Assembly: GCF_000013205.1 (NCBI RefSeq) | Contig: NC_007775.1 | Location: 1,608,501 to 1,672,500 of the forward strand | Reading direction: 5' to 3' | Length of the DNA: 64,000 nucleotides | DNA from: Synechococcus sp. JA-3-3Ab | GTDB lineage: Bacteria; Cyanobacteriota; Cyanobacteriia; Thermostichales; Thermostichaceae | In this document: positions 34,690-43,469 of the stretch, piece after piece | Numbering within the stretch: the first letter of the stretch is position 1 | Layout of the letters: every line of letters begins with the position of its first letter | The notes under the pieces: model-generated | What the model was told of the DNA's origin: nothing | The model's input: the letters and a program-made list of their open reading frames with translations, nothing else | Database searches by the model: none | Position numbers and translations under genes: made by a program

Positions 34690-35751
34690 ACCCTAACCCT
34701 GCCTGGATAACGATTACGAAGACTATTACCCCAGCTACCGGCACAACCTACTGCAATCCGGGTGGAAACCCCTGTACCGCCATTTCGATGCCGAGTATTC
34801 CTGTGCGGGATCCCTGGGCGTTGGCCGAAAAATTTTTGGAGATGTGTGCAGCGATATTGCCAATGCGGTAGGACGTAGAGAGTACAGCGCGCTTCTCAAC
34901 TTTCAGAGAATACCTGTTACAAGATCGAAGGGTTTTGGAATAGCGTCACTCCACCTCTGCCCAGCCCCGACCATACAGTATTTCATGATCAGCTCTCCAC
35001 GCAGACGCCGATTCAGCAGCAGGTGAGCCGGGATCAAGTTCCCATCGATGACGTTTTAAGGCGCCTGCAGGAAATGACCGTTCTCAGAGTTTTAGCGCAT
35101 CTGGGGCGACTGGTGCAGTTGGCGCAATTCCATATGGAGCGCTACTTCTACCATCCAGTCGAGCGGTTCAGCAGTTGGGAGGAAATCAGCAGCCTGGGCA
35201 CCACCTATGCCTTCTGACCGGAGCCGCAGATTTGGCTACAAGTTCAGGCCACCTATCACAACTGCCGCCGCTACACCCTGCTGGGCGTGGCTCTCAGGCC
35301 CTTGTTCGCAAGGTTACTTACAATCTGGCAGTGATGGTGAGCGGCTACCAAAGCCGGATCGGGCAAATCCACAGCCCCTATCCAATCAGTTCTTTTCCCA
35401 CCGAAATTCAGGCCTTTGCAGCTTCTACAGCAGGAGCGATTGGCGGTCTTGGTGCACGGGATCCCGGGTACGGGCAAAACGGGATGGACGCAGGCAGTGA
35501 CCCACGAGCTGCTGGGGCCCCTGCGCTATGCGGTGCTCATCTTGGATCACGAAGCCGTGCAGGAGTTCATCGCGCCCCCCTACCTGGAGGGGGTCTGCCT
35601 GATCATCAACGAAGCCGATCACCTCGCCCAAGACCGAGCCAGCGAGGTAGCCCAGCAGAGCACCAAAACCGAACGCATCCTCAGCCTGTTAGATGGCACC
35701 CTTCACCAAAGCGTGCTCGCTCCCGATTATCTCGACTGCGAGCAGAGCATG
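34690..35751 (+). pseudogene. AAA+ ATPase gene, 5' part (frameshifted)
   Basis: Fragments in changing frames line up as one protein. LDNDYEDYYPSYRHNLLQSG leads to FREYLLQDRRV, then (shift near 34930) NSVTPPLPSPDHTVFHDQLS through TYAF, a stop at 35215, PEPQIWLQVQATYHNCRRYT, (shift near 35310) KVTYNLAVMVSGYQSRIGQI, and (shift near 35415) LQLLQQERLAVLVHGIPGTG with Walker A GIPGTGKT and Walker B CLIINEADH. It ends in YLDCEQSM where the IS607-type element begins. At least three indels and a stop make it nonfunctional. The 3' part is at 37583-37780. Confidence 0.7.
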
Positions 35752-35819
35752 ACTCTAGTCAATGATATGCTGGACTATACTGAAAATAATGTACAGTATG
35801 TTCAGTATGGCTGCTTGGC

Positions 35820-36437
35820 ATGGCTAGATATGTAAAACCGAGAGAAGCGGCGGATTATTTTGGGGTGTGTCTCCACACCTTGAGGCGATGGGAACAGAAG
35901 GGCTGGATCCATGCAGTACGTACACCATCTGGTAGAGCGAGAAGGTATAACCTCGACAGCTACATTGGCCTCCGGCCCGCTGACGCGAACAGAGCACCCA
36001 AGAAGGACAAACGAGTCGTTTTGTACGCCCGAGTCAGCAGTCGAGGGCAGAAACCAGACTTGGAGAGACAGATTGCAAGACTGGTTAACCTCTATCCTGG
36101 AGCCGAAGTGGTCGGAGAGGTTGGCGGCGGTCTCAACTTCAAAAGACCAAAGTTCCTTGCCTTATTGGAACGAGTTCGTGCGGGAGATGTCGGAACAATT
36201 GTGGTCGCTCACCGGGATCGACTCTGCCGGTTTGGATTTGAGTTCGTTGAGTGGTACTGCCGTCAATACGGGTGCGAAATCTTGGTTCTCGATGACGATC
36301 ACCTTTCTCCCCAACAGGAACTGGTTGAGGATATCCTCACCATCCTGCACTGCTTCAGCAGTCGGCTCTACGGACTCAGAAAATACCGGGCTGCAATCGA
36401 GAAAGATACGGATTTATCCGGAGCCAGCGCTGGCTAA
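35820..36437 (+). CDS. tnpA: IS607-type serine recombinase TnpA
   Basis: The 205-residue protein has a MerR-like helix-turn-helix (YVKPREAADYFGVCLHTLRR, then WEQKGWIHAVRTPSGRARRY) and a resolvase domain starting VVLYARVSSRGQKPDLERQI, where Ser in ARVSS is the nucleophile; DRLCRFG and LVEDILTILHCFSSRLYG follow as in IS607 TnpA. The linker between the domains (GLRPADANRA, about 51-60) is encoded by a dispersed repeat also present outside the element. Its 3' part overlaps the start region of tnpB in another frame. Confidence 0.92.
   Translation: MARYVKPREAADYFGVCLHTLRRWEQKGWIHAVRTPSGRARRYNLDSYIGLRPADANRAPKKDKRVVLYARVSSRGQKPDLERQIARLVNLYPGAEVVGEVGGGLNFKRPKFLALLERVRAGDVGTIVVAHRDRLCRFGFEFVEWYCRQYGCEILVLDDDHLSPQQELVEDILTILHCFSSRLYGLRKYRAAIEKDTDLSGASAG
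35966..35990. repeat. Short dispersed repeat inside tnpA
   Basis: This copy of the repeat seen at 29274-29297 carries one extra G and is translated in frame as part of the TnpA inter-domain linker. Confidence 0.6.
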
Positions 36438-37572
36438 AGTTTGGAAGCGGTGGCAAGCGGCGTGCCGGTACTGCTACAACCAAGCGATTGCCTATCAGCG
36501 TCAGCATGGTGCCCCAAAAACGGCCAGAAAGCTGCGGCACATCATCCTGCGCTCCGACCTGCCCGGGTGGGTGAAGGACGCCCCCTGCCACATCAAGCAG
36601 AACGCGGTCGTCGAGGCGTGGTTGGCGTTTCGCCGAAGCAAAGACGCGAGGTTTCGCAGTGTGCGGGACAGGTCGCATACGCTGCAATTCAACGCCGGCA
36701 ACTTTCGCAATGGGACGTGGTATCCGAAACTCACCCGAGGTTTGGCGTTCCGTGCATCCGAGGAGATGCCCAGAGAATGGGCACGTGGAACTGAGCTAAT
36801 GCGGGTGAAAGACAGATGGTATGCCATCTTTCCTGAGCCCGTGAACGAGCAGTGTTCGTTAGCAAAGGGGGTTGTTGCGCTTGACCCTGGAGTAAGAAGC
36901 TTCCTTACAGGGTTTGATGGGGCGGGCTTTGTAGATATCGCCAAGGGGGACTTTGGCAGGATCGTTCGGCTGTGCTACCACCTAGACGATCTGCAATCTA
37001 GGCTGAGTAAAGCACCGAGACCCAAGCGTAGGCGAATGCGGCAAGCGGCGTTTCGTCTGCGGGAGAGAATCAGGAACTTGGTGGACGAGTGCCATCGCAA
37101 GGTAGCGGCGTTCCTAACGGATAACTACCGATTGATATTCCTCCCCACTTTCGAGTCAGCCAAGATGGTTGCCAAGGCAGGGAGGAAGTTTGGTAGCAAG
37201 ACAGCAAGGGCGATGCTCACCTGGGCGCACTATCGGTTCAAGCAGTTCCTGAAGTTTCAAGCCAAGAAGAAAAACGTGGTTGTCGTGGAAGTATCGGAAG
37301 CGTACACCAGCAAAACCTGTACCAAGTGCGGGCACATCCACACCAAGTTGGGTGGCGCAAAGGTGTTTAGATGCCCAAAGTGCAACCATAGGCTACCACG
37401 AGATTGGCAAGGCGCTCTGGGTGTTATGCTCAGGGCTTTGCGGGATACCGCCTTTCTGTTTGGACTCCGTCCGAGTAGCGCGGTCGCGTCAGCATCGCGT
37501 AGTAACAACGGAAACGGACAGAATGCTATCGCTTCACCGCTGAGCAGTAATGCTCAGCAGTGTTCAGCGTAA
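36292..37572 (+). CDS. tnpB: TnpB RNA-guided nuclease homologue of an IS607-type element
   Basis: TnpB proteins are RuvC nucleases guided by a transposon-end RNA. Conserved sites are complete: Asp in VVALDPGVRSF, Glu in VVVVEVSEAY, zinc-ribbon pairs CTKCGH and CPKCNH, and Asp in PRDWQGAL. The N-terminal region reads KIRIYPEPALAKVWKRWQAA, which in relatives begins within ten residues of the start; the first in-frame ATG upstream is 36292, and a non-ATG start nearer 36385 is possible. The last about 35 residues are low-complexity (SNNGNGQNA), as expected where the coding end doubles as guide RNA. It overlaps tnpA. Confidence 0.88.
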   Translation: MTITFLPNRNWLRISSPSCTASAVGSTDSENTGLQSRKIRIYPEPALAKVWKRWQAACRYCYNQAIAYQRQHGAPKTARKLRHIILRSDLPGWVKDAPCHIKQNAVVEAWLAFRRSKDARFRSVRDRSHTLQFNAGNFRNGTWYPKLTRGLAFRASEEMPREWARGTELMRVKDRWYAIFPEPVNEQCSLAKGVVALDPGVRSFLTGFDGAGFVDIAKGDFGRIVRLCYHLDDLQSRLSKAPRPKRRRMRQAAFRLRERIRNLVDECHRKVAAFLTDNYRLIFLPTFESAKMVAKAGRKFGSKTARAMLTWAHYRFKQFLKFQAKKKNVVVVEVSEAYTSKTCTKCGHIHTKLGGAKVFRCPKCNHRLPRDWQGALGVMLRALRDTAFLFGLRPSSAVASASRSNNGNGQNAIASPLSSNAQQCSA

Positions 37573-37582
37573 ATGTATCAGG
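37450..37582 (+). ncRNA. Candidate TnpB guide RNA (omegaRNA/reRNA) region
   Basis: In IS605/IS607 elements the guide RNA is made from the 3' part of tnpB and the right end. Here that region contains CTGAGCAGTAATGCTCAG (37540-37557), a perfect hairpin, followed by CAGTGTTCAGCG. The guide would be taken from bases just beyond the right end (from about 37583, in the AAA+ remnant). Limits are approximate and expression is not shown. Confidence 0.45.
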
Positions 37583-37780
37583 TTGGTGGTGTTAATGACC
37601 TGCAACACGACCGAGCGCCTGGAGCCGGCCGTTTTGCGCCAAGTGCGGGTGGACTTGGTGCAGGAGTTTACCCACCGGTTTGCTCGAGCTGCTATCGGCA
37701 GCCACCTGTTCTCCTCTCCGGACAGGTCAGGGGAGCAACTGAGGCCAATCTTCGATTTGGGTCAGGCTGGGGTGGGCTAG
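37583..37780 (+). pseudogene. AAA+ ATPase gene, 3' part
   Basis: Immediately behind the IS607-type element the frame reads LVVLMTCNTTERLEPAVLRQ, then VRVDLVQEFTHRFARAA. This is the sensor-1/arginine-finger part expected after the Walker B of the AAA+ fragment at 35416-35751. The frame ends at TAG 37778-37780, overlapping the 3' end of convergent dnaN by four bases. It shows the element went into an AAA+ gene. Confidence 0.72.
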
Positions 37781-39141
37781 GTAGCCCGCAGTTGAACCGG
37801 CATGACCAAATAGCAGAGGCGCGTCGCTCCAATCGGCTTCCAGATGGCTGGCTGGGTAGCGCCGTTCAGCTCCAGGCTCACCTGCTGTGTATGAAACACC
37901 TTAAGGGCCTCCAGCAGGTAGCGCACATTAAAAGCCAGCTCCAGGTCAGGGCCGGACATCTGTACCGGCAGAGATTCCTCGCCGCTGCCCACATCGGGCG
38001 CCTCGGTGCTGATGCGTAGGGTTTGGGTTGCCTCAGAAAGGTTGAACTTGATGATCTCGTTCCGCTGGGCAGCAAACACCCCCACTCGCTCCAAGGACTC
38101 GATCAAAGGCCTACGCTCCAGGGTTACATGCCGCTCAAATTGCCGGGGGATCAGGCGGTTGTAGTCGGGGTACTGGCCCTCCAAAAGGCGGCTGGTAATC
38201 CGCTGCTGGCACTGAGCGCTGCCGGCGCCAGGGGGCAAAATAAATTGCACCTGCGACCGGTCAAACCGCAGTTCCACCGCGGAGGCGGCCGTCTGGGCGC
38301 CGAGGATGCGCTCCACCTCTCGTAGAGTCCGAGCGGGAATGGTGAAATCCAGCTTCGTCCCCCCAGCCGCCAAATCAACTGGGATCCCTTCCGCCTCCAC
38401 CTGAACTATCGCCAGGCGATGTCCATCGGTGGCCGCAAACTCCAGCCGCGGCGGATCCCCGGTCAAGAGCTTGACATGTACACCCGTAAGCACTTGCTTG
38501 GTGTCATCACCGGAAGCGGCAAAGAGGGTTTGGCCAATCCCTTGCAGCAGGCTCTCGATGGGCAGCTCAAGGATCTGGGCGGCTAAGCTCTCCTCCTCAG
38601 CATCGGCATCGGCAGTACGGGGCGCTATCTCGGGCAAGGTGGGATACTCTTCCGCAGGCATGCCGCGTAGCTGGTACTGGCCGGCGGCCGATGTAAGGGT
38701 CACGGCAGCGCTCTCCGGCACTTGGCTGAGGCCGATCGGGCCGCTAGGCAAACGGCTGACGATGTCGCTGAGCAGCTTGGCCGGCAGAGTGGTGCGACCG
38801 GATCCCTTCACCTCGGCCTCGAACTCGCTGCGAATGCCCAAGTTCAAGTCAAAGGCCGTCAGGGCAACCCGCTGTGCCTCTGCACTTGCCTCTACCAGCA
38901 CGTTGGCCAAAACTGGCAGGGCAGGACGGCTGGCAACGGCTCGGCTAACTGCAGCAAGGTGGTGGCTGAGCTCAGCTTGCTCACAGGTGAAGCAAAGACA
39001 ACCGGCAGGTAGGTCGACAGCCTTGCCGAAGGACTCTGTCCTGTTGACGGGGAAGGGATCCCCAGACCTGCCGTCGCGCGGGGCAGACGCGGGCGATCCG
39101 GTTTCGACTTCCCAATCCGCAGGACGTTGAGCTTGCACCAT
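37777..39141 (-). CDS. dnaN: DNA polymerase III sliding clamp (beta subunit)
   Basis: DnaN is the ring-shaped clamp that tethers the replicative polymerase. The 454-residue frame contains the clamp family segments AELSHHLAAVSRAVASRPAL, PVLANVLVEA, LPAKLLSDIVSRLPSG, YPTLPEI, FAATDGHRLAIVQVEA and the C-terminal LVMPVQLR. The first about 48 residues are extra; normal members start near the AELSHHL segment, but no better start codon was found there. A short acidic insert (ADADAEEES) is also seen. It lies beside the oriC. Confidence 0.95.
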   Translation of the reverse strand: MVQAQRPADWEVETGSPASAPRDGRSGDPFPVNRTESFGKAVDLPAGCLCFTCEQAELSHHLAAVSRAVASRPALPVLANVLVEASAEAQRVALTAFDLNLGIRSEFEAEVKGSGRTTLPAKLLSDIVSRLPSGPIGLSQVPESAAVTLTSAAGQYQLRGMPAEEYPTLPEIAPRTADADAEEESLAAQILELPIESLLQGIGQTLFAASGDDTKQVLTGVHVKLLTGDPPRLEFAATDGHRLAIVQVEAEGIPVDLAAGGTKLDFTIPARTLREVERILGAQTAASAVELRFDRSQVQFILPPGAGSAQCQQRITSRLLEGQYPDYNRLIPRQFERHVTLERRPLIESLERVGVFAAQRNEIIKFNLSEATQTLRISTEAPDVGSGEESLPVQMSGPDLELAFNVRYLLEALKVFHTQQVSLELNGATQPAIWKPIGATRLCYLVMPVQLRAT

Positions 39142-39299
39142 CAGGGGACTTGCGAGCTGAATACGCCTATCCTACACCGCCTGCTTCCCACGGATCCCTC
39201 CCTGCCCAGACGAGTTTTGCAAAAAATTTTCCTCGCGCGCGCAGGATAAAGTTAAAAATCACGATCCCTACCCAATTTAATTTTTTAATCTAGTAGTAG

Positions 39300-39660
39300 T
39301 AGGGGCTGTGGAAACTGTGGAAATTGATCGGAAAAACCTTGCGCCACAAGCTTTTGATCGTATTCCCCACCTGTGGAAAAACTGTGGATAACTTGGCCAA
39401 CTTTCCACAAGGTATAAATACTCTGTGGATAACTCGGGAGGTTTTTCCACAAGTTTTCCACAGATTTTTGAAGTTTTCCACAAGTTTTCCACAGGCTGAG
39501 GGGGATGAAAATGTTGCTATTCCCTGACAAATTTATAAAACTTAACGTACGACCAGTGTGGGATGCTCTAATCTAGTGGTTCGTTGCTCTAGATGTGGTC
39601 TGGGGATCCCATGAAGGCTGGGGGCGGCCTTCGGGGGATTTCCACAGGTTTTCCACAGGC
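39300..39660. other. Chromosomal replication origin (oriC)
   Basis: Twelve DnaA-box-like nonamers cluster here. TTTTCCACA occurs on the plus strand at 39443, 39454, 39474, 39485 and 39649 and on the minus strand at 39372. TTATCCACA occurs on the minus strand at 39383 and 39424. Near-matches are at 39307, 39316, 39401 and 39638. A+T-rich segments flank the cluster (39250-39300, TTTAATTTTTTAATC, and 39528-39545), suitable for unwinding. It adjoins dnaN, as in many bacteria. dnaA itself is not in the window. Confidence 0.9.
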
Positions 39661-39733
39661 TGCTCGGGAAAACCGTGGCAGCCTGCGGGAGGCTGGCCAG
39701 GCCCGCCAGACCAAAAGCTCGCATCGAGCTCAG

Positions 39734-39940
39734 GTGCGGCTGAAGCTGCTGACCGCGAGCTTCTGTTTGGCATGGTTACTGTCATTTCGGCCTCAGCCGG
39801 AGCAGTTTGCTTATGCTCAACTGCCCATAGCAAGTCAGGGTCGCTTCTCCAGAAGCGTGGATGCCTTGTTTCAAGATGAAAACGACCGTTTGCAAACGGC
39901 GGTCAAAGACCGATTGGCTACCGCCCAGCCGTCAGGGTAA
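39734..39940 (+). CDS. Possible small exported protein
   Basis: From a GTG at 39734 the frame encodes 68 residues: a hydrophobic leader (VRLKLLTASFCLAWLLSF) with a possible cleavage near FAYAQ, then a short polar domain ending AVKDRLATAQPSG. It resembles a signal peptide with a small mature part; no family is recognised. The frame extends upstream into the oriC, which is not likely coding. Confidence 0.35.
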   Translation: MRLKLLTASFCLAWLLSFRPQPEQFAYAQLPIASQGRFSRSVDALFQDENDRLQTAVKDRLATAQPSG

Positions 39941-39959: not shown

Positions 39960-41036
39960 TCAGGTAGTCTCTTCAAATTGCTCTTCGTTTGAGTCTTCAG
40001 TTACTTCTTCCGGTTGCAGCGGTGCCTCTTGGCAGCGCTCCATGGCCTGAAGCAGAAGGGCTTCCCCTTCTTGCAAGGTTTCGATGCGACAGAGAAGGGC
40101 GCGAAACTGAGAGGCGCCGGCAAAATCCTTGATGTACCAGGTCATGTGCTTGCGGGCCTGACGGATGCCACGTTCTCCCTTATACTCCCAGAGGCCCCGC
40201 AAGTGTTCTAAAGCCATTTGAATCCGATCCAGGGGGGTAGGAGCCGGCCTTTCTTGGCCGGTTTTCAGGAAGTGATCGATTTGCCCCACCAGGAAGGGGT
40301 AGCCCATCGTGCCGCGGGAGCACATCACCCCGTCGGCTCCGGTCTCCTCCAGACACTTTACCGCTGCATCAGTCGAGAAAATATCGCCGTTGGCGATCAC
40401 CGGAATGCGTAAGTGCTCTTTGACCCGGCGGATCCAATCCCAGCGAGCCTTGCCGCTAAAGCCCTGGGCGCGTGTGCGGCCATGCAAAGTAAGCAGTTGC
40501 GCTCCAGCCTCCTGCAGCCGATGGGCAAAATCCAGAATGTTGATCTCCTGATCTGACCAGCCCAGGCGAGTTTTCACTGTAACAGGTACAGGTACAGCCT
40601 TGGCCACCGCTTCCACAATCCGGGCTGCCGTGTCCGGCTCCCGCAGCAGGGCAGAGCCGCCGCCGTTTCTGGTAATCTTGTTTACTGGGCAGCCCATGTT
40701 GATATCCACCAAGGTCGCCCCCTCATCCACGGCCATGCGAGCCGCTTCGGCCAAAAAGTGGGGCCGGCAGTCGAACAACTGGATGCCGATGGGCTGTTCT
40801 CCTTCACCCACTTCCATAATGCGGGGCAGCTCGCGGGCATAGTGCAACCCGGTGGCGTTCACCATCTCGGTGTAGACCAGGCTTTGCGGGCCAAAGCGGC
40901 GTACCAACCCCCGAAACACTTTGTCGGTTACGCCTGACAGGGGTGCCTGAAAGACACGACTAAAAACCTTTACCCCCCCAATCTCAAGGGGCTGGGCCAT
41001 TCGAGCTTGCAATTGCGGCGAAAGCTGCAGGCTCAT
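39960..41036 (-). CDS. dusB: tRNA-dihydrouridine synthase (DusB type)
   Basis: The enzyme reduces uridines in the D loop of tRNA using FMN and NADPH. The 358-residue TIM barrel shows QAPLSGVTDKVFRGLVRRFG at the N-terminus, VDINMGCPVNKITRNGGGSA with the catalytic Cys, VPVPVTVKTRLGW, LTLHGRTRAQGFSG and IPVIANGDI. The C-terminal end is acidic. The gene lies 27 bases downstream of rpsR on the same strand and may be read from the rpmG promoter. Confidence 0.93.
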   Translation of the reverse strand: MSLQLSPQLQARMAQPLEIGGVKVFSRVFQAPLSGVTDKVFRGLVRRFGPQSLVYTEMVNATGLHYARELPRIMEVGEGEQPIGIQLFDCRPHFLAEAARMAVDEGATLVDINMGCPVNKITRNGGGSALLREPDTAARIVEAVAKAVPVPVTVKTRLGWSDQEINILDFAHRLQEAGAQLLTLHGRTRAQGFSGKARWDWIRRVKEHLRIPVIANGDIFSTDAAVKCLEETGADGVMCSRGTMGYPFLVGQIDHFLKTGQERPAPTPLDRIQMALEHLRGLWEYKGERGIRQARKHMTWYIKDFAGASQFRALLCRIETLQEGEALLLQAMERCQEAPLQPEEVTEDSNEEQFEETT

Positions 41037-41063
41037 CGGGATCCGGAGAAAGCAGACAGCAAC

Positions 41064-41279
41064 TTACCCTTCTTTGTTGACAAAGTAGAGAAGGCCTAGG
41101 ATGCGCGCTTGTTTGATGGCTTTGGAGACTTGCCGCTGCTGCTTGGCAGTCAGCCCCGTGATGCGGCGGGGCAGGATCTTGCCGCGCTCGGTTACAAATT
41201 TCTTGAGCAGCTCAACATCGGTGTATTTGATCGGCTCTCCCGGTTTGATGGGAGACAGGCGGCGACGAGCGTAAACCAT
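41064..41279 (-). CDS. rpsR: 30S ribosomal protein S18
   Basis: The 71-residue protein has the S18 pattern [20 protein letters not shown], then [20 protein letters not shown] and [20 protein letters not shown]. It follows rpmG by 29 bases, the usual cyanobacterial and plastid order rpmG-rpsR. Confidence 0.97.
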
Positions 41280-41308
41280 AGGTCAGGAGAACGGTAAAGC
41301 GTCTTGAA

Positions 41309-41503
41309 CTATTTGATCTCTTTATGGACGGTGTGGCGGTTGCACTTGGGGCAGAATTTCTTCAGCTCCAAGCGGGCCGTGGTGTTACGGCGATTTTTGG
41401 TGGTGGTGTAGCGGTTTACCCCCGGAGAACGTTTGTTGACGTTGGTGCGGCACTCCGTACATTCCAGGGTAATGATGATGCGGGCACCCTTTGCTTTGGC
41501 CAT
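41309..41503 (-). CDS. rpmG: 50S ribosomal protein L33
   Basis: The 64-residue protein starts [20 protein letters not shown] and contains a second pair [12 protein letters not shown]; with four Cys it is the zinc-binding form. The ATG at 41503 is chosen over one four codons upstream because MAKxKG is the family start. It heads the rpmG-rpsR pair. Confidence 0.96.
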
Positions 41504-41592
41504 AGTGGATCCCAAGATGGAGGTGAAAGTCGGCTCGAGATCCCCAAAACCCCAGCCAACGAGGTTGGAGATGGGCTACCTCGCAAGCGCGA

Positions 41593-42447
41593 TCACCAAT
41601 TATCCAACTTTTCTTTGACGGAATCAACCCAGTTTTTGACTTGCCTGCCGGTTTGTTGGCGGAGGGCGCGGGTGTTCCGATCCACGTCCCTGCTCAGGCG
41701 CTGCATCTGTCTGGAAAGATCGCGCACAGTTTCGTTGCGCTGAGCTTTGCGCAACAGGTCGCGAGCAGCGGACTTGACGTCTTCGGCGGCTTCTCCCTCC
41801 AGAATTTCCTGCAGCAGCCGCAGGGCTTTTTCATCCAGGTGGTAGCCTCGCTCCGATTCCACCACCAGGGTGCGTCCGGCGCGGTCGTGGATGCTCTGGC
41901 GTTTTTCTTTATCGAAAAGGGCGAACAGGCCATCGGCAGCCAAAGGCACCAGCAGGGCTTCCGTGAGGATAAACAGCGAGAGCACCCCTTCGCGGGCCAG
42001 GGAGCGCACCAGATGGGGTGAGGCCTCGGTTTCGGGATCCAGGGTTTTGAGGTTCAGCAGCCATTTGCCGAGGCTTTGGCCGGCGGGGCGGGATTGGAAG
42101 TAGCCGCGGTTCACCAACCAGGTGGCAAAAAAGGCGATGTAGCCGGTCATATCCACGGCGCCCGCATCGGCTCCCACCAGGGAAGCCAGGCCCTGCGCCA
42201 GGTAGGAGACCCCCAGCCCCAGCCCAAAATCCAGGGCAAAGGCTCCGATCCGTTTGCCCCAGGGGGCCAGTTTGGGCAGGGTTTCCTCAGCCTGGGGGAC
42301 GCTGGCTGCTTGAGAAGCCGGTCGCTCGGCTTGCACAGGAGGCAGAGAGGTGGCGGGGGGCAAGGCGCTGAAGGCCTGCCACTCGCTGGCGTTTTGCTCC
42401 AGTTGCTCGGTTTTGGGCCGTTCGGGATAGGGTCTGGGATCCGTCAT
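41593..42447 (-). CDS. RDD-family membrane protein
   Basis: The 284-residue protein has a Pro/Gln-rich N-terminus (about 1-55), an RDD domain with three membrane segments between about 65 and 190 (GKRIGAFALDFGLGLGVSYL; RPAGQSLGKWLLNLKTLD; DKEKRQSIHDRAGRTLVV) and a long helical charged C-terminus (about 200-284). RDD proteins are of varied or unknown function, some with ion exchange activity. It stands alone between rnz and rpmG on the same strand. Confidence 0.8.
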   Translation of the reverse strand: MTDPRPYPERPKTEQLEQNASEWQAFSALPPATSLPPVQAERPASQAASVPQAEETLPKLAPWGKRIGAFALDFGLGLGVSYLAQGLASLVGADAGAVDMTGYIAFFATWLVNRGYFQSRPAGQSLGKWLLNLKTLDPETEASPHLVRSLAREGVLSLFILTEALLVPLAADGLFALFDKEKRQSIHDRAGRTLVVESERGYHLDEKALRLLQEILEGEAAEDVKSAARDLLRKAQRNETVRDLSRQMQRLSRDVDRNTRALRQQTGRQVKNWVDSVKEKLDNW

Positions 42448-42494
42448 CGCAGGTTGAGGCTGTCGGTCCTATCATTCTAGCTAGCAAGGCAGGT

Positions 42495-43469
42495 CTAGAC
42501 TCCCACCGGCAGGGGAGCGGGGCTGCGGCGCGGGATCTCGTAGGTCATCCGATCCCGGGCCAGGATGGTGTTGGGAAAAATGGCCCGGGCTTCGGCCAGC
42601 AGGTCTTCCAAAGTGATAGGGCCCTCTGAGGTGTAGCGGGGGCTGAAGTGGGTGAGGATGAGGGTCTGGGCCTTGGCTTCGGCGGCCACCCGCGCGGCCA
42701 TGGCGGCGGTGGAGTGCTTGGCGCGCTCGGCTAGCTCCCGATCCGCTTCGGCGTAGGTGGCCTCGTGGATGACCAGATCGGCGGCGCGAGAGAGATCGAC
42801 GGCGTTGCGGCAGAAGATGGTGTCGGTGCAGTAGGAGAACTTGCGCCCTGGGATCGGAGCCCCTACGTAATCTCGCCCGTGGAACCAGCGGCCTTGCCAG
42901 AGGATGGATTGGCCGGCCTTGAGCTGCCCGTAGAGAGGGCCGGGCGGGATCCCGTCTGCCTGGGCTTTGGCCACGTCGAAGGTGCCGGGCCGGTCTTGCT
43001 CCACCACGCGGTAGCCGAAGGCAGGCACCCGGTGATCCAGGGGGGCGCAGAAGACCCAGTACTCGGGATCCTGAAGAATGAGCCCTGTTTCGACGGTGTG
43101 AACCCGGAAGGAATAGGGAATTCGGCTCTCGCTGTAGCGCAGCACCGTCTTCAGGTACTCTTCCAGGCCGGGGGGGCCATAGATGTCGATGTGTTGGGGG
43201 GTGCTGCCCAGGCCGCAGGAGGCCAACAGCCCTGGCAGGCCGTAGATGTGATCCCCGTGCATGTGGGTGATGAAAATGCGGCGCAACTGGCTGGGGCGCA
43301 GCTCGTCTAGCCGCAGCAGTTGGTGTTGGGTGCCCTCGCCACAGTCAAACAGCCACCATTCTGACCGCTGCGGAAACTGCACCGCCACGCCCGAGACATT
43401 GCGCTGGCGGGTGGGCATGCCGGAGCTGGTGCCCAGAAAGGTAACACGAATGGCGTTGGGATCCGTCAC
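42495..43469 (-). CDS. rnz: Ribonuclease Z
   Basis: RNase Z trims the 3' end of tRNA precursors that lack encoded CCA, as both tRNAs in this window do. The 324-residue metallo-beta-lactamase has TSSGMPTRQRNVSG, the metal motif FITHMHGDHIYGLPG, CDTIFCRNAVDLSRAADLVI, EATYAEAD and TLILTHFSPRY. It reads towards the RDD gene. Confidence 0.95.
   Translation of the reverse strand: MTDPNAIRVTFLGTSSGMPTRQRNVSGVAVQFPQRSEWWLFDCGEGTQHQLLRLDELRPSQLRRIFITHMHGDHIYGLPGLLASCGLGSTPQHIDIYGPPGLEEYLKTVLRYSESRIPYSFRVHTVETGLILQDPEYWVFCAPLDHRVPAFGYRVVEQDRPGTFDVAKAQADGIPPGPLYGQLKAGQSILWQGRWFHGRDYVGAPIPGRKFSYCTDTIFCRNAVDLSRAADLVIHEATYAEADRELAERAKHSTAAMAARVAAEAKAQTLILTHFSPRYTSEGPITLEDLLAEARAIFPNTILARDRMTYEIPRRSPAPLPVGV

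Follow-up and report, generated by a model that had tools for sequence, protein, structure and literature searches.

The replication origin (oriC) of the hot-spring cyanobacterium Synechococcus sp. JA-3-3Ab was placed next to dnaN, with TTTTCCACA boxes, by Ori-Finder in 2008 (PMC2275245), and a dnaN-adjacent oriC is general in the cyanobacterial phylum (PMC4674748). The published DnaA "basal unwinding system" (BUS) calls for a DnaA box with no fewer than three DnaA-trios (3'-NAN-5') at a distance of up to 16 bp, with the trios on the 5' tail of the box strand and a spacer from the stronger box that peaks at 10–13 bp (PMC8287927). In the same work, S. elongatus DnaA unwound, in vitro, the boxes and trios of its own species, and 2070 predicted origins were scanned for the BUS (PMC8287927); the JA-3-3Ab BUS may therefore already be contained in its supplementary table. 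Because the JA-3-3Ab prediction, the phylum-wide dnaN-side oriC and a working S. elongatus BUS are all published, the location of the JA-3-3Ab oriC next to dnaN is already known. Our additions are comparative details, i.e., the BUS, its conservation and the moves of dnaA; the check that they had not been published before covered open-access papers. The published origin prediction is confirmed, and a likely unwinding module is added to it.

The window, i.e., the whole stretch of 64,000 nucleotides that was analysed, covers genome positions 1608501–1672500 of the single 2,932,766-bp contig. In the intergenic region between dnaN and dusB (39960–41036, minus strand), we found twelve DnaA-box nonamers at 39307–39657, of which eight are exact TTWTCCACA and four are altered at the first base only; by make-up, they are six TTTTCCACA, two TTATCCACA and four near-matches. 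Five lie on the minus strand and seven on the plus strand, and the neighbouring gene is dnaN by its TIGR00663 match, so that the preliminary description, which had reported twelve DnaA-box-like nonamers in both orientations beside dnaN, was borne out. The features, in window coordinates, are as follows:

37777–39141, minus strand: dnaN, DNA polymerase III beta clamp (TIGR00663, 305 bits, cut-off 138), the start of which faces the putative origin
39252–39292, no strand: candidate duplex-unwinding element, rich in A+T; of all 40-bp stretches in the intergenic region, it is the least stable (nearest-neighbour dG −45.4)
39291–39302, plus strand: four DnaA-trios, 5'-TAGTAGTAGTAG-3' (3'-GAT-5' ×4; TAG ×4), on the strand of the boxes and to their 5' side; most of the sampled cyanobacteria have this motif in the corresponding position
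39303–39306, plus strand: GC-rich spacer GGGC from trios to boxes, its 4-nt spacing conserved across the phylum
39307–39315, minus strand: trio-proximal BUS DnaA box GTTTCCACA, identical in 8/8 family genomes
39316–39324, minus strand: BUS DnaA box ATTTCCACA, 13 bp from the trios, its core TTTCCACA identical in 8/8 family genomes
39372–39391, minus strand: DnaA-box doublet in 11-bp phase (TTTTCCACA at 39372, TTATCCACA at 39383)
39401–39409, plus strand: DnaA box CTTTCCACA, which is TTTTCCACA in the other seven family genomes
39424–39432, minus strand: DnaA box TTATCCACA, perfect here and degenerate (TTATTAACA or TTATCAACA) in six of seven relatives
39443–39462, plus strand: DnaA-box doublet in 11-bp phase (TTTTCCACA at 39443 and 39454), both boxes identical in 8/8 family genomes
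39474–39493, plus strand: DnaA-box doublet in 11-bp phase (TTTTCCACA at 39474 and 39485), both boxes identical in 8/8 family genomes
39638–39657, plus strand: distal doublet (ATTTCCACA at 39638, not conserved; TTTTCCACA at 39649, conserved)

Exact TTWTCCACA occurs nine times across the 64-kb window, compared with 0.66 expected, and 48 times in the whole genome; eight of these 48 copies fall within 286 bp beside dnaN, where 0.004 would be expected. A second cluster was not found genome-wide, with at most two exact boxes lying close together elsewhere. Three sequence attributes of a cyanobacterial dnaN-type oriC are present: an intergenic position beside dnaN, the start of which is 150 bp from the trios, a genome-unique cluster of TTTTCCACA boxes and an intact DnaA in the genome. 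A 115-aa reading frame at 39593–39940 is probably not a gene, since it has no family match and its region is not conserved.

On the plus strand, 39291–39324 reads TAGTAGTAGTAG-GGGC-TGTGGAAAC-TGTGGAAAT, i.e., four DnaA-trios followed by a GC-rich spacer and then by two boxes that abut, and, judged by sequence, this segment and the adjoining unstable DNA have the layout of a BUS. The four 3'-GAT-5' trios are in the right orientation, with boxes at 4 and 13 bp, which agrees with the published definition given above. A whole-genome search for the BUS pattern returned one match, and the reversed control returned none. The trio module at 39291–39302 had been absent from the preliminary description, of which the BUS is the most telling omission. 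The A+T-rich flanks claimed there held on the dnaN side (72% at 39255–39290) but not on the other side (57%; window mean 40%); the assignment to the dnaN side only follows from the position of the least stable 40 bp at 39252–39292, and DNA as unstable as this makes up 0.05% of the window. Elsewhere in the region, TAATCTAGTGGT at 39569–39580 is a near copy (11/12) of the trio start at 39286–39297; as it has no adjacent box in the BUS orientation, it is probably a chance match or a decayed copy.

Could the boxes instead serve mainly as a DnaA-controlled dnaN promoter or a DnaA titration site, with no origin? The cluster is directly upstream of dnaN, and DnaA doubles as a transcription factor in many bacteria. 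However, a promoter would not need a trio array beside an A+T-rich element, and the same exact BUS is found away from dnaN, beside dnaA alone in one genome (G025) and beside neither gene in two others (G036 and G049). We regard this explanation as very improbable, although a promoter or titration role could coexist with an origin. The dnaN-adjacent box cluster is, in our reading, very probably the chromosomal oriC (probability of roughly 0.87), because of the unique box cluster, the BUS, the strong conservation, the intact though distantly encoded DnaA and the phylum-wide dnaN-side module; the earlier call of a probable chromosomal origin is supported on the same grounds.

By analogy with the work on B. 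subtilis and S. elongatus, the best-supported model of binding, melting and helicase loading at this oriC is as follows. DnaA, encoded far away, would bind the inverted and doublet boxes (39307–39493 and 39638–39657) through domain IV, and the boxes at 39307 and 39316 would load a DnaA filament, via the AAA+ domain, onto the plus-strand TAG trios. The filament would stretch and open the A+T-rich 39252–39292 next to dnaN, where helicases would load, and replication would then be bidirectional.

The trios are identical in all eight aligned family genomes, and the spacer differs by one base in one genome. The alignments show that, within the genus, 94% of the box columns and 100% of the trio and spacer columns are invariant compared with 56% of the rest, and that, within the family (8 genomes), the corresponding values are 91%, 94% and 18%. 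The sole idiosyncratic box is the one at 39424. Furthermore, in 99 distinct cyanobacterial regions upstream of dnaN, exact boxes averaged 5.0 versus 0.01 after shuffling, and a BUS-like box-spacer-(CTA)n module, oriented as here, was present in 69, compared with 0 in the reverse-complement and reversed controls of the same regions; several of the remaining 30 have the module with one mismatch. The offsets of the boxes from the trios are fixed positions that recur across genomes. Since one-mismatch matches in the phylum scan were about as frequent as in the reversed-pattern control, only exact or origin-adjacent matches were used for it. In the phylum sample (n = 292), the exact BUS was present only together with DnaA (25 of 25 BUS genomes) and was not found in any of the 17 same-class genomes without convincing DnaA, a co-occurrence that is suggestive, not significant alone, and counted by eye from tables. 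The pattern TTTCCACA-N4-CTACTACTA can help to find oriC in cyanobacterial genomes where skew is of no use.

JA-3-3Ab is such a genome. In stretches covering 80% of the chromosome, no GC, AT or coding-strand skew was centred on the box cluster (permutation p about 0.4), and no significant skew that could mark an origin by a GC-skew switch was seen anywhere. Cumulative G−C wanders between a maximum at 0.44 Mb and a minimum at 2.68 Mb that is within noise; with dnaN as the origin, the leading–lagging contrast at fourfold sites is +0.002 (permutation p 0.38), and the leading strand carries 49% of the coding bases. An optimum of fourfold-site GC skew near 1.60 Mb in a 42% genome sample was noise, as it was gone at 80% sampling. 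The cumulative GC-skew check that had been proposed for this locus, run on the 80%, neither supports nor refutes an origin, as strand skew is almost absent from the chromosome. JA-3-3Ab has been listed by an independent study among the weakest-skew chromosomes (0.004; PMC2099444) and by Ori-Finder as being without typical GC skew (PMC2275245). Heavy rearrangement is, we infer, the likely reason for the flat skew; the mapping of JA-3-3Ab against JA-2-3B'a gave 330 segments, compared with an average of 46 across 41 pairs (PMC2798158).

In some cyanobacteria, irregular skew has been tied to the loss of DnaA dependence, with DnaA-free replication from many origins (PMC7198777). It could be argued from this precedent, and from the near-zero strand skew (computed here; PMC2099444), that JA-3-3Ab resembles Synechocystis 6803 and Nostoc 7120 in replicating from scattered origins independently of DnaA, and that the cluster is a leftover origin or a set of DnaA transcription-factor sites. 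The strong conservation of boxes and trios across the family speaks against a relic, as do the full-length DnaA in all nine sampled genomes of the order and, to the limited extent given above, the pairing of the exact BUS with DnaA, and we consider a relic unlikely. As DnaA and a conserved origin are found here on a chromosome of near-zero skew, a flat profile does not have to imply independence of DnaA. JA-3-3Ab, which is almost free of skew and keeps both DnaA and a conserved BUS, is therefore a good test case for the tie between skew and DnaA dependence.

The dnaA gene is located at genome position 95–1444, about 1.28 Mb from the dnaN-side cluster, in line with the earlier remark that it is not adjacent. 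In DnaA, we take GKDHTTV to be the box-reading motif and a conserved arginine to be the residue of the arginine-finger segment. Both are kept in the JA-3-3Ab protein, which is full length (534.5 bits), with all four domains aligned to B. subtilis DnaA (PDB 8btg). The deposited sequence begins at dnaA, and an origin at rpmH-dnaA was the first tentative assignment for this genome, as reported in PMC2275245. On the other hand, a single TTWTCCACA is present nearby, inside the gene, and the whole-genome pattern search found no BUS at dnaA, which makes an origin there barely credible.

Returning to the dnaN-side oriC, dnaA appears to have moved away from it, because the gene is beside the same oriC in two same-genus and in more distant relatives. 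In two members of the genus (G001 and G002), in G006 from the same family, in G008 from the same order and in six more of the 58 genomes compared, dnaA directly adjoins this oriC and dnaN. The dnaA+dnaN tree is (((G000,(G004,G003)),((G002,G005),G001)),G007),G006,G008, where G000 is JA-3-3Ab, G004 is JA-2-3B'a and support for the G007 node is 60%. On the assumption that adjacency is the ancestral state, dnaA departed from oriC at least three times in the family, namely once in the line leading to G000, G003 and G004, once in G005 and once in G007, the latter two being limited by draft assemblies.

The oriC neighbour distal to dnaN varies as well, being a dusB block in JA-3-3Ab, that block in inverted form in G005, and relA/spoT in G003 and G004. 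The block, dusB-rpsR-rpmG-RDD-RNase Z (window 39960–43469; L230 3206–6690 in G005), lies in opposite orientations at oriC in the non-sister genomes G000 and G005, and RNase Z is 90 kb away in G004; the side of oriC that faces away from dnaN looks like a breakpoint at which rearrangements recur. The relA/spoT family gene adjoins oriC in JA-2-3B'a (L237 11331–13613) and G003 (L235 4442–6724), in the slot that dnaA occupies in other relatives. In the cyanobacterium G025, oriC, as marked by the BUS, stayed beside dnaA (at C1:37–1889), with dnaN at 3.08 Mb (L150) and no exact boxes upstream of that dnaN.

The origin had also been described as bordering an island of decaying mobile elements, which held only in part. 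An IS607-type element (35748–37579), encoding a resolvase with a MerR domain (205 aa) and TnpB (553 aa), is indeed present just beyond the far end of dnaN, but it looks recent rather than decaying, because both reading frames are open and a clean empty site exists in JA-2-3B'a (L237 near 9030) and G003 (L235). This check covered the IS607-type element alone among the mobile elements of the window.

Could the BUS-bearing oriC core be the fixed point of cyanobacterial chromosomes, which stays intact while dnaA and dnaN each leave it repeatedly, and mark DnaA-oriC-dependent lineages even when they are skewless? We put this forward tentatively, as a proposal slightly short of an even chance. If true, JA-3-3Ab would be a DnaA-dependent chromosome without strand skew, against the view that collapsed skew tracks the loss of DnaA dependence. 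A comparison of lineages with and without the BUS offers a route to ask whether flat GC skew reflects lost DnaA control or mere genome shuffling.

Compared with the Ori-Finder assignment of 2008, as given in the accessible part of that paper (PMC2275245), our analysis has in common the strain, the dnaN neighbour, the TTTTCCACA box and the absent GC skew, whereas the trios and BUS, their conservation and the history of dnaA adjacency come from this analysis and are not described in that part. The BUS of B. subtilis oriC (boxes 6/7, GC spacer, DnaA-trios) is alike in its tandem boxes, its GC-rich spacer, its 3'-GAT-5' repeats on the box strand, to the 5' side of the boxes, and the A+T-rich DNA beyond; JA-3-3Ab differs in that dnaA is not next to the origin, the boxes belong to the TTTTCCACA type and the two in the BUS follow each other directly, at 9 bp. 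The oriC of S. elongatus PCC 7942 is set apart by the regular GC skew of its chromosome and by proof that its origin depends on DnaA, whereas JA-3-3Ab is skewless and its origin is predicted from sequence. The likeness lies in the dnaN neighbour and in the boxes, 11 in S. elongatus and mostly TTTTCCACA, which DnaA opens there in vitro together with the trios.
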